Shown here piece by piece: positions 41,729-56,316 of a DNA stretch of 64,000 nt. The stretch comes from Beijerinckiaceae bacterium. Lineage in GTDB: Bacteria; Pseudomonadota; Alphaproteobacteria; Rhizobiales; Beijerinckiaceae. Below the pieces are notes generated by a model. The model searched no databases. It was given only the letters and a program-made list of their open reading frames with translations, and had not been told where the DNA came from. Positions within the stretch are counted from its first letter, which is position 1. Each line of letters opens with the position of its first letter. The DNA lies in assembly GCA_947454485.1 (NCBI GenBank), contig CANGJJ010000001.1, positions 248,001 to 312,000 on the forward strand, given 5' to 3'. The translations under genes and the position numbers were made by a program.

Positions 41729-43122
41729 TGCCCGCAACACGTGTTGAAACGGACAGTCTCGGCACCATCGAGGTCGGGTCTGACCGATACTGGGGCGCAC
41801 AAACCGAACGCGCTCGCCGTAACTTCCGTATCGGAACAGATCCGATCCCGCTCCCGCTCATTGAAGCTCTCGGTTTGATCAAGCGCGTCGCAGCAGAAGT
41901 AAATCGCAACCTTGGACTGCTCGATGACCAACGCGCCAGCGCCATCATCACGGCCGCGCAAGAAGTGGTGGATGGCCGCTTTGCAACGCATTTTCCCTTG
42001 ATGGTGTGGCAGACAGGATCTGGCACACAGACCAATATGAATGTGAATGAGGTTATCGCCAATCGCGCCAATGAAATTTTGGGCGAACCTTTGGGTTCGC
42101 GCGCGCCTGTGCATCCCAATGACCATGTCAATCTGGGGCAATCCTCCAATGATTGCTTCCCAACGGCCATTCATCTGGCCTGCGCGCAGCTCATTCATGC
42201 TGAACTTTTGCCTTCGCTCGATTCCTTGGCCCGCGCTTTTGAATGGAAGTCACGCGAATATGCTGATGTGGTCAAAATCGGCCGTACCCATTTGCAAGAT
42301 GCAACGCCTATGACCTTGGGGCAGGAATTATCCGGCTATGGCACACAGATACGTCTTGGCTGCGAGCGTATTCGACGCGCACTGCCTGATCTGTTTTCGC
42401 TTGCTCAAGGTGGTACGGCTGTTGGCACGGGTCTCAATACGCATCCACAATTTGCAAGCGCTTTTGCAGGGCGTATTGCGGAACTAACTGGTCTGCCCTT
42501 TGTCAGCGCTGCGAATAAATTCGAAGCGCTTGCCTGTCATGATGCGATTGTTTTCATGCATGGTGCGTTGGATGCTTGTGCGGCGGGACTGTTCAAAATC
42601 GGCAATGATATTCGCTTATTGGCAAGTGGCCCGCGCAGTGGATTTGGAGAATTGCGGCTGCCAGAGAATGAGCCTGGCTCATCCATTATGCCGGGCAAGG
42701 TCAATCCCACTCAGGCTGAGGCCCTGACCATGGTCTGCGCCAAGGTCATGGGTAATCATACGACGGTTGTCTTTGCCGGCTCGCAAGGCCATCTCGAACT
42801 CAATGTGTTCAAACCAGTCATCGGCGCCTGCACATTGCAATCCATCCGTTTGCTGAGTGATGCAGCTACCAGCTTCCGTTCCAATTGCATCGAGGGTCTG
42901 CAGCCCGACCGCGCGCGCATGAATGAGTTGGTCGAACGGTCCTTGATGTTGGTGACGGCCCTTGCGCCGCGCATTGGCTATGATAGCGCAGCCGCCATAG
43001 CCAAGGCCGCCCATGCCAATGGCACGACTTTGCGCGAAGAGGCTGTGGCGAGCGGTTTGGTGAGCGAGCAGGATTTCGACACGATGGTCGATCCGCGCCG
43101 TATGTTAGGCCCGGGTCGTTAG
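41728..43122 (+). CDS. fumC: Class II (iron-independent) fumarate hydratase
   Basis: The 464-aa enzyme interconverts fumarate and malate in the citric acid cycle. It belongs to the aspartase/fumarase superfamily, with [32 protein letters not shown], the active-site HLQDATP, and the signature [13 protein letters not shown]. Class II fumarases lack the oxygen-sensitive iron-sulfur cluster and in other bacteria replace the class I enzyme under oxidative stress. Its ATG overlaps the ecfG stop codon, so it is probably made with the general stress sigma factor. The end overlaps the convergent DUF1624 gene by 4 bp. Confidence 0.95.
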
Positions 43123-44099
43123 GGCTCGCGCCGCAAACATTGGCGGGTGAATTTATCAATCTGGCTTTGATCGGTCGGTGACAGCTGGTTCTGCACCAAG
43201 CGCTGCCAGATGGGCGGCTGTTTGCGGATTTCACTTGCGATGCAATTGCACACAATCTGACATTGCATTTCACTGCCGCCTGAGACGCTGCATTGACGGG
43301 TGCAACTTGTCACAAAGGGTGCGTCATCGCTGCCAGGCAAGCCTGCGGCTGGTGAGCCCATCAACTGTGTGGCTATAAAGACAAGAGCGATGAAGACAGG
43401 TTGATGCAGCAGATAGATGCTGAGTGAGTGGCGCCCGCCCCAGACCATAGCGCGCAGACTATTGGAGCGCGGGCTCCACTGCGTGAGCTTGTGCGGCAGG
43501 CCGATGGTGAGCCAGAGCTTCATCGCGCCAAAGCCAAACAGTACAAAGCCCGCCCAGGGAAAGACAGGGCGCCAATCAAGACTTGGCGGATCGCGCGTGC
43601 CAAGCCCTACCCACCACCATATTGGCTTATCAAAGAGTGGTTGTGCGACCGTGAAGGGAGCGACCATCACCGCCAGCGCTATGGCAAGGGTGAACCACCA
43701 TGGCATGCGCATGAACAAGAGGGTGAGCAGGCTTGAAAGCGCGATGCAATGGAGGATGCCAAAAAAGATGAGCCCTTCGGGCGCCCACCATGCTGTAAGC
43801 GCGGTGATGGCTGAGGCTGCCAGAACGATTTGCAGCAAGCGTGGTGTGAAAGAGGCTAGCTGAAAACCGTTGCGCAGCGCGAGCGCCAATGACACGCCAA
43901 CCAGCAGCAAGAATGAGGCGGCCACCACATGGCCCAAAGCCATCATGCCGAAGTTATAGGGCAGTTCTGGCGACACGAGTCTGAAATATCCAAGATCCCA
44001 GACGAGATGATAGGCGAACATGCCCACCAGCGCCGCACCGCGCAGCAGATCAAAAGCTGCAAAGCGCGTGCTGGGGGGCTTAGGTGCGCTCACTGTCAC
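43119..44099 (-). CDS. DUF1624 membrane protein (acyltransferase-like) with Cys-rich tail
   Basis: The 326-aa protein has about eight transmembrane helices. It opens with the DUF1624 signature [28 protein letters not shown], a family related to heparan-alpha-glucosaminide acetyltransferase and other membrane acyltransferases, and has [16 protein letters not shown] near the end of the membrane part. From about residue 258 it continues with a soluble tail holding six cysteines ([14 protein letters not shown] and RQC), not part of the usual family. It starts at GTG inside the stop of the upstream gene (GTGA), so the opgH-unknown-DUF1624 genes are coupled. A role in modifying periplasmic glucans with acyl groups is inferred. 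Confidence 0.82.
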
Positions 44100-45112
44100 G
44101 GAGCAGGCTTGTCCGAGAAGTGGCTGAAGCTCATGTCAGGCGCGGAGAGATTATGAATGGAGGGTACGCTGCGTCCCGCCCACACTTCCGTTGCCTTGGC
44201 AGATTTGAACGGCATGATGGCGCTCTCGCCCCAGCCTTCTGCGCCCTTGCCACGCCATGCGATTTTGGCGACATCCGAATTGGTCTCGGTAATATACATC
44301 GAGCGCATGGCCGCAAAAGGCGCGCCACCGGGCATCGGGCCAGAGGTCGTTCCATCCAGCACGATGCGTTCCTGATCGATCATCGAGAGCTTGAGTGTCG
44401 CTGATCCGCCGCGTGCGAATTGCAACGTGAAAGTCTTGGTGGCGGGATCGAAGGCGACCTCCTTCAGGGCGACGATCGGGCGATCTTGAATCTCGACAGG
44501 ACCGACAAGGAAGGACGAGCCATAGGCAGTCCAGCGCATTTCGCCAAAGGGCAGGGGGCGCGCGCGCCAATAGCCATCGGGCGGATAGAAGACGAGCACT
44601 TCTTCGGCGCGCTCACGATGGCGCATCCACAATTGCACAAGATGCAGCCCCTGTTCGACGCGCTCACCCACGCGCACAGGTACAGTGGCGGGGCGCCAGA
44701 AGCTGGGGAATGTATAGCCCACCAACCAGAAGTCCGGTGTCTCCCAGAAGGTCACACGGCGCGAATTGTCGGATTTGAAATTGGGATCCTGCGTCATGTC
44801 GCATGAGGTGAAGTCAGGCGCGAAGCGATCCACCGCAATCGTGTTGATATAGGAGGGATGTGCGGCTTGAATGCGAAAGCGTCGCACTGTGGACGACACA
44901 AAATCAAGATGCACATTGTCCTTCTCAGCGCAAAGCACTGGCGTGCTTTTGTTCACCACATCAACCGCCAGTTCATGGGGGTCGATGCCATGGGCTGGTA
45001 CGAAGGGCTGTTCCATATTGGTGAGGGTCGAGGTCTGCGGGGGCTTGGTTTGCGCTTGCGCAGGCAGGACGGCGATCACAAGGAACAGGCTCGCAACGAG
45101 GCTGTGTTTCAT
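44096..45112 (-). CDS. Uncharacterised periplasmic protein coupled to opgH
   Basis: The 338-aa protein begins with a signal peptide (MKHSLVASLFLVIAVLPAQA) and is all beta-rich after it. It does not show the motifs of OpgG (MdoG), the usual periplasmic partner of OpgH, and is much shorter than the about 500 residues of that family. Parts such as FWETPDFWLVGYTFPSFWRP and VQLWMRHRERAEEVLVFYPPDGYW are Trp/Tyr-rich as in carbohydrate-binding proteins. The start is uncertain: a GTG at 45127 overlaps the opgH stop (GTGA), while the ATG used here gives a proper signal peptide. It probably handles the OpgH product, by inference from its place. Confidence 0.7.
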   Translation of the reverse strand: MKHSLVASLFLVIAVLPAQAQTKPPQTSTLTNMEQPFVPAHGIDPHELAVDVVNKSTPVLCAEKDNVHLDFVSSTVRRFRIQAAHPSYINTIAVDRFAPDFTSCDMTQDPNFKSDNSRRVTFWETPDFWLVGYTFPSFWRPATVPVRVGERVEQGLHLVQLWMRHRERAEEVLVFYPPDGYWRARPLPFGEMRWTAYGSSFLVGPVEIQDRPIVALKEVAFDPATKTFTLQFARGGSATLKLSMIDQERIVLDGTTSGPMPGGAPFAAMRSMYITETNSDVAKIAWRGKGAEGWGESAIMPFKSAKATEVWAGRSVPSIHNLSAPDMSFSHFSDKPAP

Positions 45113-45123
45113 GGGTCTGTGGC

Positions 45124-46911
45124 TCACGACTTGGAGGAAAGTTCGGTATCGAGTGCCTGCAAAATAGCAGGCTTTTGGATCTCTTCAGGTATGGCACATA
45201 ATTTCATGCGCATGAGAATGTGCCCCAGTCTTGGCGAGGCGCTCGCCATGGCAAAGGGTACGGCCAAGATATAGCCCAAAGTGAGGGGCAAAGACCACAA
45301 GATCAAACCGGGCGCCATCAGGCCTGCGGCTGCAAAGATCACGACACCAAACAGGGTCTGCGGCCACAGGCCCGCAAAGGCGGTGGCAAGAGACAGGGCA
45401 TGCGCATCACGCGCCTGACCATTCCATGTCACAGAGCGCCCCAGAACAAGACCGATCATGAAGAGGCTGGTGCGCAAAGTCGTCGCGGCGCCGAGCATGA
45501 AAGAGAAGGTGAGTTCGACGAGACAGCCGAGCGTGAAGCGCAGCGCCCCACCATAGCGCTTCAACTCACCGGGCGTCAGCGCAATATCAATGAAGCCTGC
45601 GAGCTTGGGCGCAAGATACATCAGCAAGAAAGTGCCATAGAGCAGCAGTGCTGAGGTGGCGGGAAATTGGGCCAGATCTTCACCATCAAGCGGCTTCAGC
45701 GCGCTCAGCAAAATGATCAAGGTCCAGGCAGGTACGCCGATGAACATCATGATTGCCCAGATGAGCTGAAAACGGCTCATCGGCTGCAGACCTCTGAGGC
45801 CGAGCAATTTCACATATTGCAGATTGCCCTGACACCAGCGCAGATCGCGGCGTGTGAATTCGATGAGCGTTGGTGGATTGTCTTCATAGCTGCCGCATTC
45901 TTCAGGCAAGACGCGCACTTCATAGCCAGCGCGCCGCATCAACACAGCCTCCACCTGATCATGGCTGAGAATGGGACCGCCCAAAGGCGGGCGTCCGGGC
46001 AGATCAGGCAAATCACAGTGCAAGAGAAAGGGCGAGATGCGCACCAAAGCATTATGGCCCCAGAAGGGGCCGCAATCGCCCGCCCACCAAGCACTGCCCA
46101 TTGTGTAGGGGCGCATGCCATGACGCATGCCAAATTGGAAGATACGTGCAAAGGCAGCTTGCGCCGGTGCGCCCACAACGAGGCTTTGCAGAATGCCAAG
46201 TTTGGGATGGGCCTGACCAATGCGTACCAAACGCAAAATCGTTTCGCCTGACATCAAACTATCCGCATCAAGCGGGATCATGAATTCATAGTCGCTGCCC
46301 CAACGCAGGCAGAAGTCGCGCACATTGCCCGCCTTATAGCCTTCGTTGCTGGTACGGCGGCGATAGACCATGCGTGATGCATCTTCGGCATTCTGCGCTT
46401 GCCATGCCGCGAAGGCCGCCTCTTCAGCGCGCGCAACCTCAGCATCATTTGTGTCGCTGAGAATGAACCACCCAAATTGCGCACCTTCACCCGTTGCATC
46501 CACATCGGCCTTGACCGTGCGCATGCGTGCAAAAGCGCGTTGAGGATCTTCATTGCGCAAGGTCATCAAGATCGCGGTCTTGGTGTGGATCGGTGTTGCT
46601 TCGTGACCCGCGCCTGCAAAAGGGGCAACCCGTTGCAGCGCGTCCGAACGTTGCAGCAGCCACAGGCCCAGCAGCGCATTCCAAACCCCGATCACGCTCC
46701 AGGGCGCGGCAATGGCAAAGCATAAGAAGATTAGACGATCGATCAGGCTCCAGCCGCTCGTGCCCAAAATGGACGCCAGCCAGGCGAGCAGGCCGATATA
46801 GGCGCTCACTGTGACAGCCGCAGCAAAGGCGCGGCGGCGGGTGAGAACGCGGCTTGATTGCAGACCGGTGGGGGTCATGGGCTCAAGGGCCGGGGCAGTC
46901 AGATCAGTCAT
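45124..46911 (-). CDS. opgH: Glucans biosynthesis glucosyltransferase OpgH (MdoH)
   Basis: OpgH is an inner-membrane enzyme that makes the glucan backbone of osmoregulated periplasmic glucans from UDP-glucose. The 595-aa protein has two N-terminal helices, the GT2 domain with LMTLRNEDPQRAFARM, DADSLMSGETILRLV (the DxD site), LSHDQVEAVLMRR and FTRRDLRWCQGNLQ. A cluster of C-terminal helices follows. It is shorter than the E. coli protein (about 850 aa), mainly in its cytoplasmic ends. The gene is followed by two coupled genes but not by opgG. Confidence 0.9.
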   Translation of the reverse strand: MTDLTAPALEPMTPTGLQSSRVLTRRRAFAAAVTVSAYIGLLAWLASILGTSGWSLIDRLIFLCFAIAAPWSVIGVWNALLGLWLLQRSDALQRVAPFAGAGHEATPIHTKTAILMTLRNEDPQRAFARMRTVKADVDATGEGAQFGWFILSDTNDAEVARAEEAAFAAWQAQNAEDASRMVYRRRTSNEGYKAGNVRDFCLRWGSDYEFMIPLDADSLMSGETILRLVRIGQAHPKLGILQSLVVGAPAQAAFARIFQFGMRHGMRPYTMGSAWWAGDCGPFWGHNALVRISPFLLHCDLPDLPGRPPLGGPILSHDQVEAVLMRRAGYEVRVLPEECGSYEDNPPTLIEFTRRDLRWCQGNLQYVKLLGLRGLQPMSRFQLIWAIMMFIGVPAWTLIILLSALKPLDGEDLAQFPATSALLLYGTFLLMYLAPKLAGFIDIALTPGELKRYGGALRFTLGCLVELTFSFMLGAATTLRTSLFMIGLVLGRSVTWNGQARDAHALSLATAFAGLWPQTLFGVVIFAAAGLMAPGLILWSLPLTLGYILAVPFAMASASPRLGHILMRMKLCAIPEEIQKPAILQALDTELSSKS

Positions 46912-46991
46912 GGGCGGTCTGGGGCTCTGGTCTTGAGGCTGAACATGTCGTAGCGATGCGGACCATAGTGGCAGAGCTGGACAGGGTCGAG

Positions 46992-48005
46992 ATGGCTAAC
47001 CCGACAGATGACAAGCGCCGCGAGGCCCGCGCCCTCTGGTACGCAGAGCCGGGCCGGGTGGAGCTGCGACGCGCAGAGCTTTTTCGCAAAGAGGGCGATG
47101 TGACTTTGCGCATGCTCTGGTCAGGCGTCAGTCGTGGCACGGAGCGGCTCGTCTGTCAGGGGCAGGTGCCAGCCTCAGAATATGAGCGCATGGCTGCGCC
47201 GCTTCAGGAAGGCGCCTTCCCTTTCCCCGTCAAATACGGCTATTGCGCGGTTGCCCGCGTTGAGGCCGCCGACGAGGCGGATCTGATTGGCCGTAGCGTT
47301 TTTTGCCTGCATCCGCACCAAACTCTTTTCGCGGCGCCGCGCGCCATGGTGAGCCCTCTGCCAGCAGGGCTGCCGCCGCGCCGCGCCACTCTGACCGCCA
47401 ATATGGAGACCGCGCTCAATGCTGTGTGGGATTCTGGCGCGGGGCCGGGAGATCGCATCTATGTCATCGGCGCGGGCGTGCTGGGCCTCTTGGTCGCTTA
47501 TCTTGCCGCGCGCTTGCCCGGGGCTGAGGTCTGCGTCGTGGATCTGCAAGACAGCCGCCGCGCTCTTGTTGAATCCTTCGGTGCGCGTTTTGCTCATCCT
47601 GCTCAGTTGGGCGCGCCGGGCGATGGTGATGTGGTCATTCATGCCAGCGCCTCTTCTGCAGGGCTCGGAGTTGCGCTGGGCGCGGCTGGACTTGAGGCGC
47701 GCGTGATAGAACTGAGTTGGTACGGCACAGCTGATGTTCTGGCCCCTTTGGGCGGCGCCTTCCACAGCCAACGCCTGCAGCTGATCTCATCGCAAGTGGG
47801 TCAAGTCTCGCCGGGCCGTCGCCCGCGCTGGTCCTATGCGCGCAGGCTCGCCAAAGCGCTGGAGCTTTTGTGCGATGATCGGCTCGATGGGCTGATCACC
47901 GATGAGATCGCCTTTGAGGATGCCCCTACGCAATTGCCTGACTTGCTGGGCAAACAGGCGCAGGGGCTCGCCACCGTGTTGCGCTATGCTGATCCGTCTG
48001 CCTGA
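46992..48005 (+). CDS. Zinc-type alcohol dehydrogenase-like protein (MDR family)
   Basis: The 337-aa protein has the fold of medium-chain dehydrogenases: an N-terminal GroES-like part (LRMLWSGVSRGTERLVCQG) and a Rossmann domain with IYVIGAGVLGLLVAYLAARLPG. The catalytic-zinc histidine motif GHE is not seen: KYGYCAV stands where it is usual. It is therefore probably a non-zinc reductase or dehydrogenase. It is the first gene of a set with PTPS-like, glycosyltransferase and methyltransferase genes. Starts at 46956 or 46992 are both possible; the latter matches the relatives better. Confidence 0.82.
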   Translation: MANPTDDKRREARALWYAEPGRVELRRAELFRKEGDVTLRMLWSGVSRGTERLVCQGQVPASEYERMAAPLQEGAFPFPVKYGYCAVARVEAADEADLIGRSVFCLHPHQTLFAAPRAMVSPLPAGLPPRRATLTANMETALNAVWDSGAGPGDRIYVIGAGVLGLLVAYLAARLPGAEVCVVDLQDSRRALVESFGARFAHPAQLGAPGDGDVVIHASASSAGLGVALGAAGLEARVIELSWYGTADVLAPLGGAFHSQRLQLISSQVGQVSPGRRPRWSYARRLAKALELLCDDRLDGLITDEIAFEDAPTQLPDLLGKQAQGLATVLRYADPSA

Positions 48006-48043
48006 CCAGACGTAAGCAAGAGACCTGACCTTGGGAGTTGTCC

Positions 48044-48448
48044 ATGTTTGCTGTTGAAGTGCGTGACCACATCATGATCGCGCATAGTTTCAAGGGGGAG
48101 CTTTTTGGCCCCGCGCAGAAGCTTCATGGCGCGACCTTTGTTGTCGATGTCGCTTTCTTTCGCGAGACGATCACCAATGATGGAGTCGTCGTTGATATCG
48201 GCCGCGCACATGATGCGCTCAAAGCAACTCTGGGTCCGCTCAATTATCAGAACCTCGACGAGCTGCCGCAATTTGCGGGCAAGCAGACGACGACAGAATA
48301 TTTGTCGAAATATATTTTCGACGCCATGGCTGAGGCAGCGCGTAGCGGACAGCTGGGCCCCGGCGGCGAAGGCATCAGCAAAATCCGCGTTAGCCTGCAT
48401 GAATCTCATGTGGCCCGCGCTTGGTTCGAAGGGCCTGTGGCTGCGTGA
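48044..48448 (+). CDS. 6-pyruvoyl-tetrahydropterin synthase/QueD-like protein, altered metal site
   Basis: The 134-aa protein has the tunnelling-fold pattern of PTPS/QueD: AHSFKGELFG, LHGATFVVDVAFF, VVVDIGRAHDALKATL, LDELPQF, and LHESHVARAWFEG with the Glu that binds the pterin. H14 and H28 can bind metal, but the usual HGH motif is HGA (Ala at 30) and the catalytic Cys position is Ala24. The substrate may still be a dihydropterin or a similar base, but the chemistry should differ from PTPS or QueD. GGGAG precedes the ATG. Its stop overlaps the next gene by 4 bp. Confidence 0.83.
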   Translation: MFAVEVRDHIMIAHSFKGELFGPAQKLHGATFVVDVAFFRETITNDGVVVDIGRAHDALKATLGPLNYQNLDELPQFAGKQTTTEYLSKYIFDAMAEAARSGQLGPGGEGISKIRVSLHESHVARAWFEGPVAA

Positions 48449-49503
48449 GCCAAGCGGTCTTTGCGATCCCCGGTGACTTGCAGACGCTGACCGGCGGCTA
48501 TGGCTATGACCGCGCTCTTCTTAGTTTTTTGCCCTCCTGCGGTGTGGATGTAAAATATCTGCCGCTGCCGGAGGGTTTTCCCTTTCCTGATGCAGCGCTC
48601 TGTGCGCAGGCGCTGACCAAACTCAAAAGCGTGCCGCCCGATCACATATTGCTGGTCGATGGTTTGGCGCTTGGTGCTTTACCTGCGCAAAGCCTGTCAG
48701 ATCTGCGCGCGCCTGTGGTGGCGCTGGTGCATCATCCTTTGGGGCTTGAGTCTGGCCTTGCGCCCGATGTGGCGCGCAAACTCATCGAGAATGAGCGAGA
48801 CGTCTTGGCGCAGACATGCGCGGTGATCGTGACAAGCGCGACAACGCGCGACACTTTGATCAGCGATTTTGCAGTGCCTGCTGATCGGATCACCATCGCG
48901 GAGCCCGGAACAGATCCTGCTGAGCGTGCGAGCGGGTCAGGCCGCGACGAGATCGAACTTTTGAGTGTGGGAACAATCACGCCGCGTAAAGGCCATGTGG
49001 TGCTGGTTGAGGCTTTGTCGCACTTGACCCATCTGCCTTGGCATTTGACGCTTGTGGGCAGCGAGATGCGTGACCCCTCATGTGCGCAAGCTCTGCATGG
49101 GGCCATTGCGAAGCATGGCCTGCAAGAGCGTATCGCTTTTACAGGCGAATGCGAGGCAGATGCCTTGGCGCAAGTCTATGCGGGCAGCGATCTGTTTATC
49201 TTGCCCTCGCTCTATGAAGGCTATGGCATGGTCCTGGCAGAAGCTATGGCGCGGGGCCTACCCATCATCACCACAACGGGTGGTGCGGCCGCTGCAACCG
49301 TTCCTGATACAGCCGCGCTCAAAGTGTCGCCCGGCGATGTCGAGGCTTTGCGTGCAGCTTTGATGCGCGCGTTGGGTGATGCAAAATTGCGCGCCTCTTT
49401 GAGTGAGGCGTCGTGGCAGGCAGCTGCCAAATTGCCAAGCTGGCAAGATACGGCAAGTGCTGTGGCGCAATGTTTAAAGCGCGTGAGAGAGGAAGCGATA
49501 TGA
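48445..49503 (+). CDS. Family 4 glycosyltransferase
   Basis: The 352-aa protein has the GT-B fold: an N-terminal half with FAIPGDLQTLTGGYGYDRALL and VALVHHPLGLE, then a C-terminal half with LLSVGTITPRKGH and the nucleotide-sugar motif LFILPSLYEGYGMVLAEAMARGLP. Such enzymes transfer a sugar from a nucleotide donor. It starts at GTG within the stop of the PTPS-like gene (GTGA). Coupled translation suggests the sugar is put on the product of the preceding step, perhaps a pteridine, which is inference. Confidence 0.87.
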   Translation: MSQAVFAIPGDLQTLTGGYGYDRALLSFLPSCGVDVKYLPLPEGFPFPDAALCAQALTKLKSVPPDHILLVDGLALGALPAQSLSDLRAPVVALVHHPLGLESGLAPDVARKLIENERDVLAQTCAVIVTSATTRDTLISDFAVPADRITIAEPGTDPAERASGSGRDEIELLSVGTITPRKGHVVLVEALSHLTHLPWHLTLVGSEMRDPSCAQALHGAIAKHGLQERIAFTGECEADALAQVYAGSDLFILPSLYEGYGMVLAEAMARGLPIITTTGGAAAATVPDTAALKVSPGDVEALRAALMRALGDAKLRASLSEASWQAAAKLPSWQDTASAVAQCLKRVREEAI

Positions 49504-50339
49504 GCGGCTTTTCGGCAGATTGGCTCGCGCTGCGCGAACCTGTGGATCATCGCTCTCGCAATGCGCAAGTCTGCGCTGCGATGCTGGCGCATCTTGGTGC
49601 GCTTGCGCAGCCGCGCCTGATTGATCTTGGTTGCGGCTCTGGGTCCAATCTGCGCGCATTGGCGCCGCTTTTGCCACAGCGCCAAAGCTGGCGGCTTGTG
49701 GATGCTGATCCGCTCTTGCTCGCAGCCGCACATGAGGCTCTGCAAGACTGGGCGCAATCATCGCGCAATGAAGGTGACGTGCTGCATCTGACTTATGCGG
49801 ATAAAGAGATCGAGGTGCGCTTTGATCAGGTCGATCTGTCGCGTGATCTTGAGCGCGTCCTCGACCAAGGTGCAGATCTCATCACAGCAGCTGCGTTTTT
49901 CGACCTCGTCGCGCCAGACTGGCTGAATAGATTTTGTGCAGCCCTCATTGCGCGCAAACTGCCCTTCTACACCGTGCTCACTTATGATGGTGTCGAGCAA
50001 TGGTCCCCGCCCCATAGCGCTGATGCGCAAGTGCTGGCTGCATTCCACGCTCATCAAGCCAGTGACAAAGGCTTTGGTCCCGCAGCAGGTCCGCGCGCCA
50101 CCGCATTGATGGAGGCGCAATTCAAATCAGCAGGCTGGCATGTCATGACCGGCGACAGCGCCTGGAAGATGACCGCTGCACAAGATGCAAAACTCATCAG
50201 CGCACTTGCGCAAGGGGCTGCGCAGGCTGTGGCTGAAACAGGCCGCGTGGCCTTGGCTGATCTTCAGTCGTGGTTGCAAGCGCGCACACAGGCTGAGCGC
50301 GCCAGCATTGGCCATCTTGATCTCTTCGCGCGGCCTTAA
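49500..50339 (+). CDS. Class I SAM-dependent methyltransferase
   Basis: The 279-aa protein has the SAM site LIDLGCGSGSNLRALAPLL near residue 40, the acidic loop LVDADPLLL, and a later TYDGVEQWSPPHSADAQVLAAF segment. It overlaps the glycosyltransferase gene by ATGA and ends in a 4-bp overlap with the convergent cytochrome b561 gene. The methyl acceptor is unknown; the neighbours suggest a pteridine- or pyrimidine-derived compound or its sugar. Confidence 0.87.
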   Translation: MSGFSADWLALREPVDHRSRNAQVCAAMLAHLGALAQPRLIDLGCGSGSNLRALAPLLPQRQSWRLVDADPLLLAAAHEALQDWAQSSRNEGDVLHLTYADKEIEVRFDQVDLSRDLERVLDQGADLITAAAFFDLVAPDWLNRFCAALIARKLPFYTVLTYDGVEQWSPPHSADAQVLAAFHAHQASDKGFGPAAGPRATALMEAQFKSAGWHVMTGDSAWKMTAAQDAKLISALAQGAAQAVAETGRVALADLQSWLQARTQAERASIGHLDLFARP

Positions 50340-50887
50340 GGTTTCGACCAGAGCAACATGCGCTGCAGAACGCCATCGCGGCGCACATAGTGATGCATCA
50401 AGCCAGCGCCTGCATGGATGATGATGATGGCTGCCATCAACATGCCGCCTGCCCCATGGATTTCCGCAAGAACATCATAGACCGCGCGATTTTCCGGCAA
50501 GATATTGGGCAGAATGAAGAGGCCAAACACGCTGACTTCAGCCCGATAGGTCGACATCATCATCCAGCCGAGCAGCGGCATGACAAACAAGAGCGCCAGC
50601 AACGTATGATGTGCGGCGGTTGAGGCGATGCGCTCAAAGCGCGTCAGGCCTTCATAGGGTGCGGGCACACCGTATAAGCGGCGCACCAGAACGCGGCACA
50701 GAGCCAAAAAGAAAACCGCCACGCCGAAAGAACGATGCAGATCGAAGAGCAAATTCTGCAGCGGCCCTTCATCCAATTCGCTCATGGCGATGCCACCGGG
50801 TATGATGCCAATCACGATAATGGCGGTCAGCCAGTGGATGATTTTGCTCAGGGTCGAATAAGCGAGGGGTCGTGCGGTCTCAGCCAT
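50336..50887 (-). CDS. Cytochrome b561
   Basis: The 183-aa membrane protein has four helices with the histidines of the bacterial cytochrome b561 family: LSKIIHWLTAIIVIG, LLFDLHRSFGVAVFFLALCR, ASTAAHHTLLALLFVMPLLG and LAEIHGAGGMLMAAIIIIHAGAG. It carries two b haems and moves electrons between quinol and another donor or acceptor. Its place between the methyltransferase and reductase genes suggests it gives or takes electrons in the same pathway. It lies 12 bp after the RibD-like gene on its own strand, so both are probably one transcript. Confidence 0.9.
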   Translation of the reverse strand: MAETARPLAYSTLSKIIHWLTAIIVIGIIPGGIAMSELDEGPLQNLLFDLHRSFGVAVFFLALCRVLVRRLYGVPAPYEGLTRFERIASTAAHHTLLALLFVMPLLGWMMMSTYRAEVSVFGLFILPNILPENRAVYDVLAEIHGAGGMLMAAIIIIHAGAGLMHHYVRRDGVLQRMLLWSKP

Positions 50888-50899
50888 GGTCGTGTCCCT

Positions 50900-51613
50900 T
50901 CAGGCCTTGCGTGGATCGCTTAAAGCACAGTCGAATAGAACATCTCCATCGCTCAATGGATAGGTGTGAACCACCGGGCGGCGGGCGCGGGATAAATCTC
51001 CTTGCGGGATGAGGTCGAGCCCCATTTTGCCAGACCCGATCAACACAGGCGCCAGCAAGATATGCAGCCGGTCGACGCAATTGGCCTCGATGAAACCAGA
51101 GATGGTGCGCGCACCCCCTTCAATGAGCAGTCGCCGCATTCCAAGCTTGAACAGCGCGTCGATGATCCGCGCAGGTGCCAGTGTGCCATTGTCCATCGGC
51201 AGGGGAATATGTGTGGCCGCCGTGATTTTGGTGTTGCCGCCGCTGATGACATAGCAAGGTGCCTCATCGGCACTTTCCCAGCGAAGGCCGGGCTCAAGCC
51301 GGCCTGATGGGTCGATGACGACGCGGGCAGGGCTCTTGCCGGGCGCGCGGCGTACCGTCAGCAAAGGGTCATCGGCGATGATCGTGCCTACCCCCACCAC
51401 CACAGCGTCCACGCAGGCGCGCAGCGCATGCAGATGGGTCAAAGCGCCCGGACCATTGATATAGCGGGACTCGCCCGTGACCGTGGCGATGCGCCCATCG
51501 AGCGATTGGCCCAGCTGAGCCACGACAAATGGCCGCTCTGGCGAGGCCTCCCGCACCCGGCGGAGAGCCTCGTCAGCCGAATTTTCTGGCGGGGCGGTTC
51601 TTAACCCAGTCAC
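50900..51613 (-). CDS. RibD C-terminal-type pyrimidine/pteridine reductase
   Basis: The 237-aa protein consists of the dihydrofolate-reductase-like reductase domain of RibD without the deaminase domain: RPFVVAQLGQSLDGRIA, INGPGALTHLHALRACVDAVVVG, PARVVIDPSGRL, and RRLLIEGGARTISGFI. Relatives reduce 2,5-diamino-6-ribosylaminopyrimidinone phosphate or related compounds with NADPH. It diverges from the GTP cyclohydrolase II gene across about 100 bp, so both start a shared pathway from GTP. The GTG start has AGGAGAG in front. Confidence 0.9.
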   Translation of the reverse strand: MTGLRTAPPENSADEALRRVREASPERPFVVAQLGQSLDGRIATVTGESRYINGPGALTHLHALRACVDAVVVGVGTIIADDPLLTVRRAPGKSPARVVIDPSGRLEPGLRWESADEAPCYVISGGNTKITAATHIPLPMDNGTLAPARIIDALFKLGMRRLLIEGGARTISGFIEANCVDRLHILLAPVLIGSGKMGLDLIPQGDLSRARRPVVHTYPLSDGDVLFDCALSDPRKA

Positions 51614-51715
51614 AGAGCTCTCCTATTTATTGGCTCTGATGTGGTCTACAAAGGCCATCCAGAGACAAGCTCGAACCGTAATTGGCCAGAGTGGCTCTAG
51701 TCAGTCGAGGGTAGC

Positions 51716-52843
51716 GTGGGCGAAATCAAGACGATTCTTGATGTTGATGGTGGGATTGGGCAGGTCGCGGTCGAGCGGGCGCTCGCCGAAGTGCGCGCGG
51801 GCCGTCCCCTGATTATTAAAGCGGGCCGGTCCCATTTGCTCATGATCTGCGTCGAGGCGCTCGATGAGCGCCATATCGCCAAGCTTGAAGCCTTGGCCAA
51901 GCGCCGCGCCCGTTTGTTGTTGCCCGCACCTCGCCTGCGCCGTATGGGCCTTGAGCGCACGCGCCCCGGCGCGATTGCCCTGCCCAGCATTGATTTGAAG
52001 CGCGTCGAAACGCTTGCCCTTGATGTCAGCGCCCGGATCGACGCCCCCGTCGCCAGTCTTGGGCGACTTGATCTTGCCGCGCTTGAGCTTGCCAGCCTTG
52101 CGTTGGTCCTGCCCGCTGTCATCGCCCTTCCGGTCTCGGTGCGCGATGTTGAGGGCGAGGGCCTTGTGCGCGTGGAGGCGGCTGCCATTGAGGGCTATCG
52201 CCGTCTGCGCCTGCATGATCTGCATATCGTGGGTCGCGCGCCCGTGCCGCTTGAGGGCGCACCGGAGACGGAATTTGTGATTTTCCGCGGTGGTGAGGGT
52301 CTGCGCGATCAGGTCGCGATCATGGTCGGCAAGCCCGATTTGTCGCAGCCGGTGACGGTGCGGCTCCATTCTGCCTGCCTGACGGGCGATCTCTTCGGCA
52401 GCCTGAAATGCGATTGTGGCGACCAATTGCGCCATACAGCGCAGCATATGGCGCAGAATGGCGGCGGCATTTTGCTCTATCTGGATCAGGAAGGGCGCGG
52501 CAACGGCCTCTCCAACAAGATGCGCGCCTATAAGCTGCAGTCGCAGGGTTTCGACACCTATGACGCAGATGAGGTTTTGGGCTTTGGCCATGACCAGCGC
52601 GGCTTCGACTTTGCCGCTGAAATGTTGAAGCAATTGGGTGTGACCAAAGTGCAGGTCATGACCAACAATCCGGTGAAGATCGGCGCTCTGAGCGAGGCTG
52701 GACTTGAAGTCGTGTCTGATCGCCGTATTCTGGGGCGTACGACCGATCAAAATGTGCGTTACCTCGCGTCCAAGCGCGACCGCGCCGGCCACTTCATCGA
52801 GATGGATGATTTGACCGTGCAAGGCGGCAAGGACGAGCGCTAG
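51716..52843 (+). CDS. ribA: GTP cyclohydrolase II with degenerate N-terminal RibB-like domain
   Basis: The C-terminal half is a complete GTP cyclohydrolase II: VRLHSACLTGDLFGSLKCDC with zinc ligands C221, C232 and C234, then LYLDQEGRGNGLSNKMRAY and MTNNPVKIGAL. It opens the imidazole ring of GTP to give the diaminopyrimidine used for riboflavin and related compounds. The N-terminal 180 residues have the length of a DHBP synthase (RibB) domain but lack its acidic motif (DxxRExEGD), with IIKAGRSHLLMICVEAL instead. They should be catalytically inactive. It starts at GTG. Confidence 0.92.
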   Translation: MGEIKTILDVDGGIGQVAVERALAEVRAGRPLIIKAGRSHLLMICVEALDERHIAKLEALAKRRARLLLPAPRLRRMGLERTRPGAIALPSIDLKRVETLALDVSARIDAPVASLGRLDLAALELASLALVLPAVIALPVSVRDVEGEGLVRVEAAAIEGYRRLRLHDLHIVGRAPVPLEGAPETEFVIFRGGEGLRDQVAIMVGKPDLSQPVTVRLHSACLTGDLFGSLKCDCGDQLRHTAQHMAQNGGGILLYLDQEGRGNGLSNKMRAYKLQSQGFDTYDADEVLGFGHDQRGFDFAAEMLKQLGVTKVQVMTNNPVKIGALSEAGLEVVSDRRILGRTTDQNVRYLASKRDRAGHFIEMDDLTVQGGKDER

Positions 52844-52861
52844 CGCGACCGGAATGGACCC

Positions 52862-55150
52862 ATGTCGCCAACCAACGAGCCGTCGGTCTATACCGGCAGG
52901 CTCTATTTGTACTTCTTCGCCTCGCTGATTTTCGTCGCGGGTGCGACGGTCATCTTCTGGCCTTGGCTGTCGGGCGCTGTCACCATTCCGTGGGACGCGA
53001 AAGCGCAGGCCTATTCGCAGTTAGGGTTCCTCGCGCGCACACTGGCCGCTGGTGACAGTCCCTTCTGGACGCCGAATGTCTTCACCGGTCATCCGCAGAT
53101 TGCTGACCCCCAATCGCTGATTTTCTCGCCGCCCTTTTTGCTGCTGGCTTTGTTCAATCCAGCTCCCTCGTTTCGCGCGGCCGATGCTGTGCCTTTTGTG
53201 ATGCTGGTGCTCGGCGGCTTGTCGATCATCGGTTTCTTTCGTGATCGACGCTGGCATCCTGCGGGGGCTCTGGTCGCGGCCTTTGCCTTTTCCTTTGGTG
53301 GTTCGAATGCCTGGCGCTTGCAGCATGTGGGCGAAGTGCTCTCGCTGTGCTGGTTCGCGCTGACTTTGTTTGCTCTCGCGCGCGGTCTTGATCGCGGCTC
53401 CATTCTCGCAGGCTTTTTGGCGGGCGTTCTGGCGGGCTTTATGGCGCTGGGGCGGGACCAGATCGCGATGCTCTGCATCTTCATTCTGGCAGCCTATGCC
53501 GTGACCTTTGTGCTGGGGGATCTCAGCGGCAGGCTCAAGCGCTCGCTGCCTGTGCTCAGTGCTGGTTTCATCGGCGGTGTGCTGACCATTGGCATTCCCA
53601 TCGCGCTCACACTGGCTTTGGCTGATGAGTCTAATCGCCCCGAGATTGATTATGCGGGCGCGATTGGTGGCTCGCTGCCGCCTTTCTCATTGCTGTCAGC
53701 GGTGGTTGCCAATCTGTTTGGCGTCGATGGTCCGATGAAAGACTTTTGGGGTCCGCCCGCTGAACTCATTTGGGGTCCGAGCCATCTGGCTTTGGCGCGC
53801 AATATGGGCGCGATTTATTTTGGGGCCATTCCGCTAGCAGCGCTCGCCTGCGGCTTTGCATCTTTGCGCGAAACGCGCATTCGCATTTTCGCCGTGCTCG
53901 CCATCATCATGCTGCTCTATGCGGTGGGAAGTTACACGCCCTTCTTTGGCTGGGTGTTTGAAATTCCCGGCGTCGCGCTCTACCGCCGTCCCGCAGATGC
54001 CACATTCCCGCTCTGCGCTTTGCTGGCGATTTGTGCAGGCTATGGCGTGCATATTTTGGCACTGCGCGGTGGTGGGATGCGCCTTGTGTGGGGCGCAGTG
54101 ATTGTGGCGGCTCTCTATGCCTTGTGTGTTGGGGTCGCCATTGACAAGGATCGTTTTGCGCAGTCCATGCCCGCACTCATCACAGGGGCCGTTGCGCTCA
54201 GCTGTGCCATGCTGGTTTTGTTATTGGCGCCTGTGCTCGCGCGCCGCGCGCCAGTTGCGCTGATCTTGCTCATTGGCTTTGGCATGACGGTGGATCTTTC
54301 TATCAACAACAAGCCGAATGAATCCACAGCTGCCTCGCCGCTTGATTATGAGATCCTGCGCTTTGGATCGCGTGATGAGACTTTGGTGCGCATGCGCGCC
54401 TTGCTCGCAGAGCAGCGTGGCCCCGACAGGCGTGATCGTGTTGAGCTTGCGGCGATTGATTACAACTGGCCCAATGCTGGCCTTGTCCATAATTTCGATC
54501 ACGACCTTGGCTTCAATCCCGTGCGTTTGAAGCTCTTTGTTGATGTGACCCATGCGCAAGATCAAATCGCCATTCCCGATCAGCGCACATTCTCGCCGCT
54601 CTATGCGGGCTTCAAATCGCCTCTAGCTGATTTGATGGGCGTGCGTCTTGTCTTGTCGCGCTATCCATTGGGCCAGCTTGATCCGACCTTCCGCGAGAGC
54701 GACTTCATCTCGCATGGACAGATCAACAGTATCTACATTTGGGAGAATCCGCGCGCTTTGCCGCGCGTCATGATGGTGGGCTCCGCGCAGGCGGTGAATT
54801 TTGAATCGCTCACCGGTTCGGGCAATTGGCCGAAGGTGGACTTCACGCAGACAGTGTTGCTTGAGAGCGATGATATTTTGGAGCCGCGCTCAAGGCCCAA
54901 GGGTGAGGCGCGCATCCTGCGTTATCGTAATACGCAAATCGACATCGAGGTGAATTCGCCCGAAGGGGGCTGGCTCGTCTTGAATGATATTTGGCATCCG
55001 TGGTGGCAGGCTAAGGTTGATGGCGCTGAAGCGTCAATCCTGCAGGCCAATGTGATGTTCCGCGCTGTGGCTGTGCCTGCAGGCCAACACCGCGTGCAAT
55101 TTACCTTCCATCCCCTGTCGGGTCTGTGGAACCAGCTGCGCGAGCGCTGA
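52862..55150 (+). CDS. Large membrane protein, YfhO/GT-C-like
   Basis: The 762-aa protein has about a dozen helices in its first 480 residues and a soluble C-terminal domain with a beta-rich end (GGWLVLNDIWHPWWQAKVDG). The plan and the conserved WDAKAQAYSQLGFLARTL after the first helix match the YfhO family of GT-C-type enzymes that move sugars from lipid carriers to cell-surface polymers. The gene starts 18 bp after ribA, so it may share its promoter. The next gene, of the YbhN family, also concerns envelope lipids or glycans. Confidence 0.75.
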   Translation: MSPTNEPSVYTGRLYLYFFASLIFVAGATVIFWPWLSGAVTIPWDAKAQAYSQLGFLARTLAAGDSPFWTPNVFTGHPQIADPQSLIFSPPFLLLALFNPAPSFRAADAVPFVMLVLGGLSIIGFFRDRRWHPAGALVAAFAFSFGGSNAWRLQHVGEVLSLCWFALTLFALARGLDRGSILAGFLAGVLAGFMALGRDQIAMLCIFILAAYAVTFVLGDLSGRLKRSLPVLSAGFIGGVLTIGIPIALTLALADESNRPEIDYAGAIGGSLPPFSLLSAVVANLFGVDGPMKDFWGPPAELIWGPSHLALARNMGAIYFGAIPLAALACGFASLRETRIRIFAVLAIIMLLYAVGSYTPFFGWVFEIPGVALYRRPADATFPLCALLAICAGYGVHILALRGGGMRLVWGAVIVAALYALCVGVAIDKDRFAQSMPALITGAVALSCAMLVLLLAPVLARRAPVALILLIGFGMTVDLSINNKPNESTAASPLDYEILRFGSRDETLVRMRALLAEQRGPDRRDRVELAAIDYNWPNAGLVHNFDHDLGFNPVRLKLFVDVTHAQDQIAIPDQRTFSPLYAGFKSPLADLMGVRLVLSRYPLGQLDPTFRESDFISHGQINSIYIWENPRALPRVMMVGSAQAVNFESLTGSGNWPKVDFTQTVLLESDDILEPRSRPKGEARILRYRNTQIDIEVNSPEGGWLVLNDIWHPWWQAKVDGAEASILQANVMFRAVAVPAGQHRVQFTFHPLSGLWNQLRER

Positions 55151-55260
55151 GCATTAATTGCGACTGTCACATAAGCGTGAACCATAAGCCGCTAGAATGA
55201 TTGCCTGATAAGCTCTGGCTCTTATAAGGGCTTGGTTGACCATAGCTCCGTGGATGACGA

Positions 55261-56316
55261 ATGGCATTGAACCAAGAGGAGGGACCGCGCGAGGCCTTGG
55301 CACAGGAGGCAGCCACGGCGTTTGTCGATCCCCTACAGGAAATCAGGACTGAGCGTCGTCGTCAGTTGTGGCGTCTTCTGGGTGCAACGCTCAGCATCGG
55401 TCTCATCATCGTCTCAGGCGTGGTTCTGACGAATATTCTGCGCCATGTGAATTGGGCAGAGCTACGCGGCGCATTTCGCGCAACAGGCTGGGACCAGATC
55501 TCGCTCGCGGCTCTCTTCACCGCGCTCTCTTATCTTGCCTTGACCGGCTATGACGCGCTGGCGCTGCGTCAGTTGGCTCTGCGTGTGCCCTATCGCACCA
55601 CGGCGCTTGGATCTTTCACCAGCTATTCCATCTCCTTCACGCTTGGCTTTCCGCTGATCACCGCCGGCACGGTGCGCTACTGGATCTATTCGCAAAAGGG
55701 TGTGTCGGCGGCAAAAGTCGCCAGCATGACCATCATTGCGGGCATTACCTTTTGGCTGGGCATGGCGATTGTCATCAGCGCATCTTTGTTGCTCGATCCT
55801 GCGGCTGTCGCTGAGGTCAATCATCTCAAAGTCTGGGTGAATGTGCTCATCGGCCTTGCGATTGCAGGCGGCGTCATTGCCTGGCTTGTGTGGGTGTCTT
55901 TGGGTGCGCGCCGTTTGCAGGTGCAGGGCCTGACTTTGGAGCTGCCGGGCTTTTGGGTGACTTTGGGTCAGATGGTGCTCGGCGTCATTGATTTATGCGC
56001 GGCCGCCATGGCGCTCTATGTGCTTCTGCCGCAGGGCCATACGACCGATTTCATCAGCTTCTCTGCAAGCTATGTGTTCGGCTGTATCGTGGGCATCGTC
56101 TCGCATACGCCGGGTGGTCTTGGCACATTTGAAGCTACGATGTTGAAGGCTGTCTCTGCGCCCTCGCAGGAGGGCGTTATCGCCTCGCTGCTGATGTTCC
56201 GCGCCGTCTATTATCTTGTGCCATTCATTTTCGCGCTGGCCCTTTTGGGTGCGCATGAATGTCTGCGCCGCTGGCGCTCGCTGCGCGAAGCCATGAGCAA
56301 GCGCGAAGATCTCTGA
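55261..56316 (+). CDS. YbhN/lysylphosphatidylglycerol-synthase-like membrane protein
   Basis: The 351-aa protein has a cytoplasmic N-terminus and about eight helices in the pattern of the UPF0104 family, with the motif VGIVSHTPGGLGTFEATML near residue 280 that is the family hallmark. It resembles the flippase part of MprF, but no lysyl-transferase domain is present. It may move or protect a lipid or lipid-linked sugar, which would fit the YfhO-like gene 110 bp before it. The evidence for a function is only family-level. Confidence 0.85.
   Translation: MALNQEEGPREALAQEAATAFVDPLQEIRTERRRQLWRLLGATLSIGLIIVSGVVLTNILRHVNWAELRGAFRATGWDQISLAALFTALSYLALTGYDALALRQLALRVPYRTTALGSFTSYSISFTLGFPLITAGTVRYWIYSQKGVSAAKVASMTIIAGITFWLGMAIVISASLLLDPAAVAEVNHLKVWVNVLIGLAIAGGVIAWLVWVSLGARRLQVQGLTLELPGFWVTLGQMVLGVIDLCAAAMALYVLLPQGHTTDFISFSASYVFGCIVGIVSHTPGGLGTFEATMLKAVSAPSQEGVIASLLMFRAVYYLVPFIFALALLGAHECLRRWRSLREAMSKREDL

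Follow-up and report, generated by a model that had tools for sequence, protein, structure and literature searches.

PTPS-IV proteins are reportedly a subfamily of COG0720, set out as such in work by Phillips in 2012, and a related protein of Streptomyces coelicolor, SCO6650, is said to be without zinc and without PTPS activity, Spoonamore having reportedly described in 2008 that it does not catalyse the PTPS reaction. Functions are given for PTPS-I to PTPS-III in the available part of one study (PMC5041015). In the available part of another, the motif FGPAQ is the signature of PTPS-IV within COG0720, and the Pfam families PF00925 and PF01872 occur around PTPS-IV (cluster-node 62 of 561 sequences); these are the only two Pfam neighbours named in that part, PF00925 is labelled GTP cyclohydrolase I/FolE2, and neither a function nor a pathway is given there (PMC5445326). 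Here we describe the surroundings of a PTPS-IV gene in a Beijerinckiaceae bacterium of the order Rhizobiales. The stretch analysed, referred to below as the window, comprises 64,000 nucleotides (assembly GCA_947454485.1, contig CANGJJ010000001.1, positions 248,001 to 312,000) of a genome that is 98.57% complete in 20 contigs, and its region 44096-56316 was analysed by open reading frames (ORFs) together with Pfam and NCBIfam family scans. The reading that we hold with moderate confidence is that a dedicated operon would convert the early riboflavin pyrimidine to a 2-amino-4-oxo-pyrimidine or pteridine that carries a sugar and a methyl group and is finished at the membrane.

Gene Content and Conservation

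The initial annotation had placed seven genes between 46992 and 52843 and read them as one cluster. All seven were recovered by ORFs and family scans, but the set reaches beyond 46992, as the divergent MdoH-like gene upstream also belongs to it. The features are as follows.

45124-46911, minus strand: MdoH/OpgH-like membrane family-2 glycosyltransferase, a cluster-specific paralog, divergent from the operon (NCBIfam NF003963)
46912-46991, no strand: 80 bp between the MdoH-like gene and the operon, likely a shared promoter region, judged from the sequence and the ORF starts
46992-48005, plus strand: MDR-superfamily dehydrogenase, weakly BchC-like, no conserved Cys (family scans, alignment)
48044-48448, plus strand: PTPS-IV, tunnelling-fold pterin-binding homolog (Pfam PTPS, 74.9 bits)
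48445-49503, plus strand: GT4 glycosyltransferase, GTG start (Pfam Glycos_transf_1, 105.9 bits)
49500-50339, plus strand: class I SAM methyltransferase (alignments, AlphaFold2 fold)
50336-50887, minus strand: cytochrome b561 family membrane protein (Pfam Ni_hydr_CYTB, 93.9 bits)
50900-51613, minus strand: stand-alone RibD_C reductase, no deaminase domain (Pfam RibD_C, 126.6 bits)
51716-52843, plus strand: GTP cyclohydrolase II (GCHII, RibA), long form with an extra 180-aa N-terminal region (NCBIfam PRK08815)

The dehydrogenase, PTPS-IV, GT4 and methyltransferase genes form a single operon, in which, as had been annotated, the PTPS stop overlaps the GTG start of the GT4 gene by 4 bp and the GT4 gene overlaps the methyltransferase gene by the same length; b561 and RibD_C lie on the opposite strand, and RibA then follows.

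The gene set was traced through 121 genomes of the order, of which 33 have PTPS-IV (a match to the window PTPS at E ≤1e-6) and 88 do not; the counts, like the Fisher tests, ignore relatedness among genomes and loci. A strong match to the dehydrogenase (E ≤1e-60) is present in exactly the PTPS-IV genomes (33/33 against 0/88), with four additional genomes at E 1e-30, and the RibD_C protein (E ≤1e-40) occurs in 27 of the 33 and in none of the 88, with one additional genome (G035) at E 1e-25. A separate distribution of the genes in relatives, which the initial annotation had considered, is thus contradicted for these two partners. The 33 genomes yielded 30 loci, the window's own among them, and the order dehydrogenase-PTPS-GT is kept in all 29 further loci, a methyltransferase match following in 28, so that the gene set is not due to chance. 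RibA is a looser member of the set. A fragment with 59% identity to the dehydrogenase over 141 residues was seen in G111 (C12:184817-185239), a genome of the same genus as the carrier G034 and with no PTPS-IV match; it is perhaps a decayed operon.

Beyond the order, a wider contig search with the window PTPS covered 580 relatives, and the 80 best loci, a selection and not a census, belong to Alpha-, Beta- and Gammaproteobacteria and one Acidobacteria metagenome-assembled genome (MAG). Plasmid records gave 20 PTPS-IV matches, of which nine loci were examined, including that of Streptomyces globisporus (L149). The core is present in all of these proteobacterial classes, in Actinomycetota and in the Acidobacteria MAG, and PTPS-IV (E ≤1e-20) was found in 27 of 398 genomes of the phylum. 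A profile hidden Markov model survey covered 110 loci (L033-L112, L115-L122, L149-L169 and the window); PTPS-IV is present in all of them by construction, since the loci were collected through it. Neighbours within 9 kb of PTPS-IV were counted over the 90 well-flanked loci (at least 3.5 kb upstream and at least 5 kb downstream), with the glycosyltransferase and the dehydrogenase each in 85, the methyltransferase in 75, the MdoH-like protein in 59, RibD_C in 55, RibA in 39, b561 in 33 (in both orientations, and also in Thiodictyon), an FkbM-type gene in 28, an ABC gene in 25, a CDP-alcohol phosphatidyltransferase in 18 and a creatininase in 12. RibD_C also recurs in distant clusters, namely those of S. 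globisporus (L149), Microbacterium (L122), Thiodictyon (L118) and the Acidobacteria MAG (L107). On a quick tree of the dehydrogenase with one support measure, betaproteobacterial operons nest among Bradyrhizobium-like ones within an alphaproteobacterial clade, which suggests that the operon was transferred as a whole; the nested operons are L063, L079, L087, L090, L091, L096 and L101. Two variants of the arrangement were seen: in L164 and L165 (genomes G325 and G308, one genus) RibD_C and RibA directly follow PTPS-IV with the glycosyltransferase match on the other side, and in the Streptomyces plasmid locus L117 a MEKHLA-domain gene comes after PTPS-IV.

The PTPS-IV Protein

By its sequence the PTPS-like protein, initially annotated as PTPS/QueD-like, is a member of PTPS-IV and not a QueD. 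The curated QueD model of NCBIfam gives 34.6 bits, below its cut-off of 89.25. The FGPAQ signature precedes the HG motif in the window and in 108 of the 110 loci, and the catalytic and zinc motif of QueD/PTPS-I (CxxxHGH) is lost, with HGH in 0 of 110. Residues were numbered on the E. coli QueD sequence. At the positions of C27, H33 and H71 no Cys or His occurs in any of the 110 loci (at C27, 109 loci have A and one has G), and the D70 position is Asp in three, while H16, H31, E86 and E110 are kept in all 110. We take C27 and H71 to belong to the catalytic set, H33 to be a zinc ligand and Glu86 and Glu110 to grip the 2-amino-4-oxo pyrimidine ring. QueD/queuosine or biopterin synthesis was therefore rejected as the function of the protein, the active-site residues being lost. 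Among the PDB matches the closest solved structure is 3d7j (E 4.7e-45), which is SCO6650 of S. coelicolor and was deposited as “uncharacterized protein SCO6650.”

Dehydrogenase, Methyltransferase and Membrane Enzymes

A BchC function of the dehydrogenase was rejected, since the NCBIfam BchC model reaches 40.7 bits with a cut-off of 291.25. Relatives of the protein are called “zinc-binding alcohol dehydrogenase” by PGAP; no Cys is found among the columns conserved to at least 88% in 90 rows. The methyltransferase was modelled with AlphaFold2 from 38 sequences (pLDDT 96.8) and has a class I methyltransferase fold. Six betaproteobacterial operons carry its gene on the opposite side, where it borders an ABC exporter gene adjacent to the MdoH paralog.

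The MdoH-like protein of the window passes the curated model NF003963 with 922.7 bits (cut-off 884). An MdoH paralog lies upstream of the dehydrogenase in 65 of 101 loci, and a CDP-alcohol phosphatidyltransferase is present in 20, namely in the same upstream position in 16 and elsewhere in the locus in four. No locus has both and 16 have neither, so that, of the 36 loci lacking the MdoH paralog, 20 have the CDP-alcohol enzyme. A count blind to position would give four loci with both matches (L157, L158, L162, L163); in all of these the MdoH match lies downstream, and the position-specific count was used for this reason. The two states are clustered on the dehydrogenase tree, with four changes, or 12 when “neither” is counted as a state, and the 101 loci thus represent far fewer independent cases.

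GCHII, RibD_C and Riboflavin

The window RibA scores 491.2 bits with PRK08815 (cut-off 464) and keeps the three zinc cysteines, Tyr105 and the other catalytic residues, as judged by comparison with an E. coli sequence. The RibBA of the genome (L002, C1 ~437527-438018) and a complete RibD both lie outside the window. None of the three zinc cysteines survives in the GCHII half of this RibBA. This leaves the window RibA as the one intact GCHII that was found in the genome, and it may double as a riboflavin enzyme. Similarly degenerate RibBA copies were seen in G041, G371, G386, G497 and G282. The N-terminal 180 residues of the window RibA (51716-52255) have no Pfam match; by eye the region resembles a degenerate RibB domain, and it is also present in G030 and G073, which are without PTPS-IV.

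The window reductase contains RibD_C only, and the N-terminal deaminase of bifunctional RibD was not found in it by Pfam. A full RibD is encoded elsewhere in the genome, which makes the stand-alone reductase an extra one. Its top PDB match is 6p8c (2.4e-23), named a 2,5-diamino-pyrimidinone reductase. No family matching ribB, ribE or ribH was found among the scanned proteins of the operon region, and the genome was searched for GCHII and RibD only. A plain riboflavin operon was rejected on account of the separate RibD and RibBA and of the deaminase-less RibD_C. Thus the view of the initial annotation that riboflavin synthesis does not explain the set holds for the set as a whole, but not necessarily for RibA with its possible second role, and the statement that other riboflavin genes are missing from the locus agrees with the position of RibBA and RibD, as far as these two were searched.

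Dependence of riboflavin on the window RibA is itself uncertain, because a creatininase-family gene is present once in the window genome, outside the window, and at least once in 19 of 20 hand-picked carrier genomes, the sample that was also used for the MdoH/MdoG comparison. The Met-type GCHII SCO6655 was reportedly shown by Spoonamore in 2006 to make a 5-formylamino pyrimidine. Across 43 survey rows, residue 105 of RibA is Tyr in 38, Met in two and Leu in one (L103), the remaining two being fragments; the Met-type rows are those of the Streptomyces loci L115 and L149, the only two bearing RibA among four Streptomyces loci examined. The creatininase copy of the Streptomyces cluster matches PF02633 with 218.1 bits. 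According to the available part of one report, the creatininase-family protein BrbF of Rhizobiales deformylates the 5-formylamino pyrimidine to 2,5-diamino-6-ribosylamino-4(3H)-pyrimidinone 5'-phosphate (PMC9478397), and by analogy the cluster creatininases may deformylate a pyrimidine as well. Met-type GCHII and creatininase proved not to be strictly paired. In genomes outside the class (G164, G414, G420, G500) the cluster carries a second intact GCHII besides an intact housekeeping copy.

Proposed Pathway

The observations themselves are the genes present, their conserved order, their joint distribution, the active-site residues that are kept or lost and the alternation of MdoH with the CDP-alcohol enzyme; from these we infer the following chemistry. 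In the first step the intact GCHII would open GTP to 2,5-diamino-6-ribosylamino-4(3H)-pyrimidinone 5'-phosphate. The deaminase-less RibD_C would then reduce the ribosyl to a ribityl group with the 2-amino group kept, in the archaeal/fungal order. Subsequently, PTPS-IV, which keeps the residues predicted to grip a 2-amino-4-oxo pyrimidine ring and has lost the QueD catalytic set, may act together with the dehydrogenase to alter the side chain, form a second ring, or both. Judging by their families, GT4 would then glycosylate the compound and the class I methyltransferase would methylate it. Eventually, the MdoH paralog, or in other lineages the CDP-alcohol phosphatidyltransferase, might add a sugar to the product or tether it at the inner membrane, with b561 as a possible partner for electron exchange. 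One conserved pathway mixing GCHII, a RibD-type reductase, a pterin-binding fold, a glycosyltransferase and a methyltransferase, as had been envisaged in the initial annotation, is supported by these observations; the redox cofactor or pigment suggested there as the product is, like the product's chemistry, a hypothesis.

Several findings weigh against this pathway. The RibD_C protein is missing in six of the 33 PTPS-IV genomes (G019, G024, G058, G083, G095, G101), and the long RibA is present in only 14 of the 33 and also in two of the 88 without PTPS-IV. RibD_C was not detected in the profile survey in the cluster of S. fungicidicus (L115), nor in the Arthrobacter locus L119, which has the dehydrogenase, PTPS and glycosyltransferase only, and on two Streptomyces plasmids (L116, L117) PTPS-IV stands alone in the examined stretch. 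The type of the reductase is mixed: bacterial RibD models of NCBIfam give 120.9 and 103.4 bits and an archaeal one 97.1, all below their cut-offs (TIGR00326, 103.4 with a cut-off of 156.35; TIGR01508, 97.1 with a cut-off of 186.45), and other reductases named like 6p8c (4ha7, 9l1f) match the protein worse than bacterial RibD does. In G041, G371 and G497 only a degenerate GCHII and no intact copy was found, so that the pyrimidine would need another source; creatininase-family genes are present in all three. Creatininase accompanies both Met-type RibA rows, but also seven of the 38 Tyr-type rows. Foldseek with the methyltransferase model returned generic class I methyltransferases only (best 3mgg, TM ~0.6), and for this reason no acceptor was inferred. 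Owing to the mixed RibD_C type and to the L115 cluster without RibD_C, our confidence in the pathway is kept moderate.

Alternative Explanations

The alternative that survives best, which we nevertheless consider doubtful, takes the locus as two independent neighbours, in which RibA and RibD_C would serve riboflavin, e.g. secreted flavins, and the dehydrogenase, PTPS-IV, GT4, methyltransferase and MdoH paralog would make a product unrelated to ribityl pyrimidine. It would fit with the window RibA being the only intact GCHII found in its genome, and with three genomes (G065, G070, G106) in which the long RibA adjoins RibD_C at a distance of at least 57 kb from the operon; the two genomes with a long RibA and no PTPS-IV (G030, G073) point the same way. 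Furthermore, S. meliloti has been reported, in the available part of the BrbF paper, to keep the flavin branch for secretion apart from that for internal use (PMC9478397). Such an independence is difficult to reconcile with the occurrence of RibD_C in 27/33 PTPS-IV genomes and 0/88 others, even though it lies at least 57 kb from PTPS-IV on the same contig in four of them (G065, G070, G100, G106) and on another contig in two (G052, G089), or with its recurrence in the clusters L149, L122, L118 and L107, though not in L115. Moreover, the protein is without the deaminase that bacterial riboflavin synthesis needs, and the genome has a complete RibD.

Alternatively, PTPS-IV could act on the product of GTP cyclohydrolase I (GCHI) and lead to a biopterin- or neopterin-type glycoside like cyanopterin, with RibA and RibD_C being peripheral. 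We regard this as improbable. Pterin glycosides are made by a glycosyltransferase in cyanobacteria, which counts for it, and so does the detection of GCHI (PF01227) in 31 of the order's 33 PTPS-IV genomes. The catalytic Cys and His of QueD and one zinc His are, however, replaced in 110 of 110 loci, G064 and G100 (96% and 98% complete, of one genus) have no GCHI by PF01227, SCO6650 is, as mentioned, reportedly inactive in the PTPS reaction, and the co-distribution of RibD_C would be left unexplained.

Slightly less probable again is a pterin route that is free of GCHI. RibA and RibD_C may make the ribitylamino pyrimidine, the dehydrogenase may oxidise C2' of the ribityl group to a ketone, and PTPS-IV, a relative of the GCHI fold, may close the ring with the 5-amino group to give a dihydropterin monophosphate, so that a redox detour may replace the Amadori step of GCHI. 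GT4, the methyltransferase and the MdoH paralog or CDP-alcohol phosphatidyltransferase may then convert the pterin to a membrane- or glycan-linked, extracytoplasmic redox carrier served by b561.

Synthesis or decoration of osmoregulated periplasmic glucan (OPG) with MdoH as the core is very improbable and was rejected: the MdoH-like gene passes the curated MdoH cut-off, and an ABC exporter in L073 that passes the glucan-exporter model shares a homology cluster with the betaproteobacterial ABC genes, but the cluster MdoH is not tied to MdoG, as 4 of the 18 genomes with a cluster copy (among the 20 chosen carriers) have no MdoG, the other 14 have a separate MdoG-linked MdoH with 33-39% identity to the cluster protein, and in the window genome MdoG is encoded on contigs C3, C5 and C9, without a genetic link to the cluster on C1. 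In addition, where the MdoH paralog is missing, 20 of 36 loci have the CDP-alcohol phosphatidyltransferase, a family that to our knowledge does not make glucan backbones.

Tentative Accessory Genes

Three flanking genes were considered tentative accessories of the proposed operon.

44096-45127, minus strand: uncharacterised protein with a signal-peptide-like N-terminus by eye, no family match in the Pfam or NCBIfam scans (17/90 loci)
52862-55150, plus strand: YfhO/PMT_2-type membrane protein (Pfam YfhO, 57.3 bits; 11/90 loci)
55261-56316, plus strand: LPG_synthase_TM (flippase-like) membrane protein (Pfam PF03706; 5/90 loci)

PF03706 genes also occur within the clusters of Streptomyces L115 and Microbacterium L122. 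A gene for an HGSNAT_cat-type, acyltransferase-like membrane protein at 43119-44099, beyond the MdoH paralog and its neighbour, is common to six loci including the window.

Comparison With Known Systems

A literature search returned no publication on the pathway or its product, the papers of Spoonamore and Phillips being outside its reach. With the proposed pathway, PTPS-IV, for which there is a solved structure and no function in the literature reached, gains candidate substrates and a list of partners tested by co-distribution and not by neighbourhood only. If the pathway is correct, many bacteria of soil and water would make a further metabolite of the pyrimidine or pteridine kind, and the annotations as QueD, MdoH, “zinc-binding” alcohol dehydrogenase and creatininase would be corrected at these loci.

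QueD, the 6-carboxytetrahydropterin synthase of PTPS-I, has the Pfam PTPS family and the two glutamates in common with the window protein, which differs in being without CxxxHGH and in having lost the zinc and catalytic residues; SCO6650 (3d7j) is its nearest solved structure. The cluster MdoH passes the curated model of the glucan glucosyltransferase MdoH/OpgH, but is a paralog not tied to MdoG. A Met-type GCHII, the type reported for SCO6655, is also found in two related Streptomyces clusters, whereas the proteobacterial cluster GCHII has mostly Tyr (Leu in L103) and most of these loci are without creatininase. The creatininase family of the riboflavin branch with BrbF in Rhizobiales recurs in 12 of the 90 loci; BrbF itself is, in the available part of the report, a riboflavin enzyme of S. 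meliloti in another context, and the window cluster contains no creatininase (PMC9478397). Also close to the locus is the PTPS-IV neighbourhood already in print, with the same FGPAQ signature and with PF00925 and PF01872, which are both present in the window (PMC5445326, available part); the core of the set has hence been described in part. To that description, in which PTPS-IV and part of its neighbourhood were known without a function, the present analysis adds as partners the dehydrogenase, GT4, the methyltransferase, the MdoH paralog, the CDP-alcohol phosphatidyltransferase and creatininase. Its contribution thus consists of the full operon and the co-distribution of its genes, the way in which the membrane enzymes alternate, and the link to creatininase.

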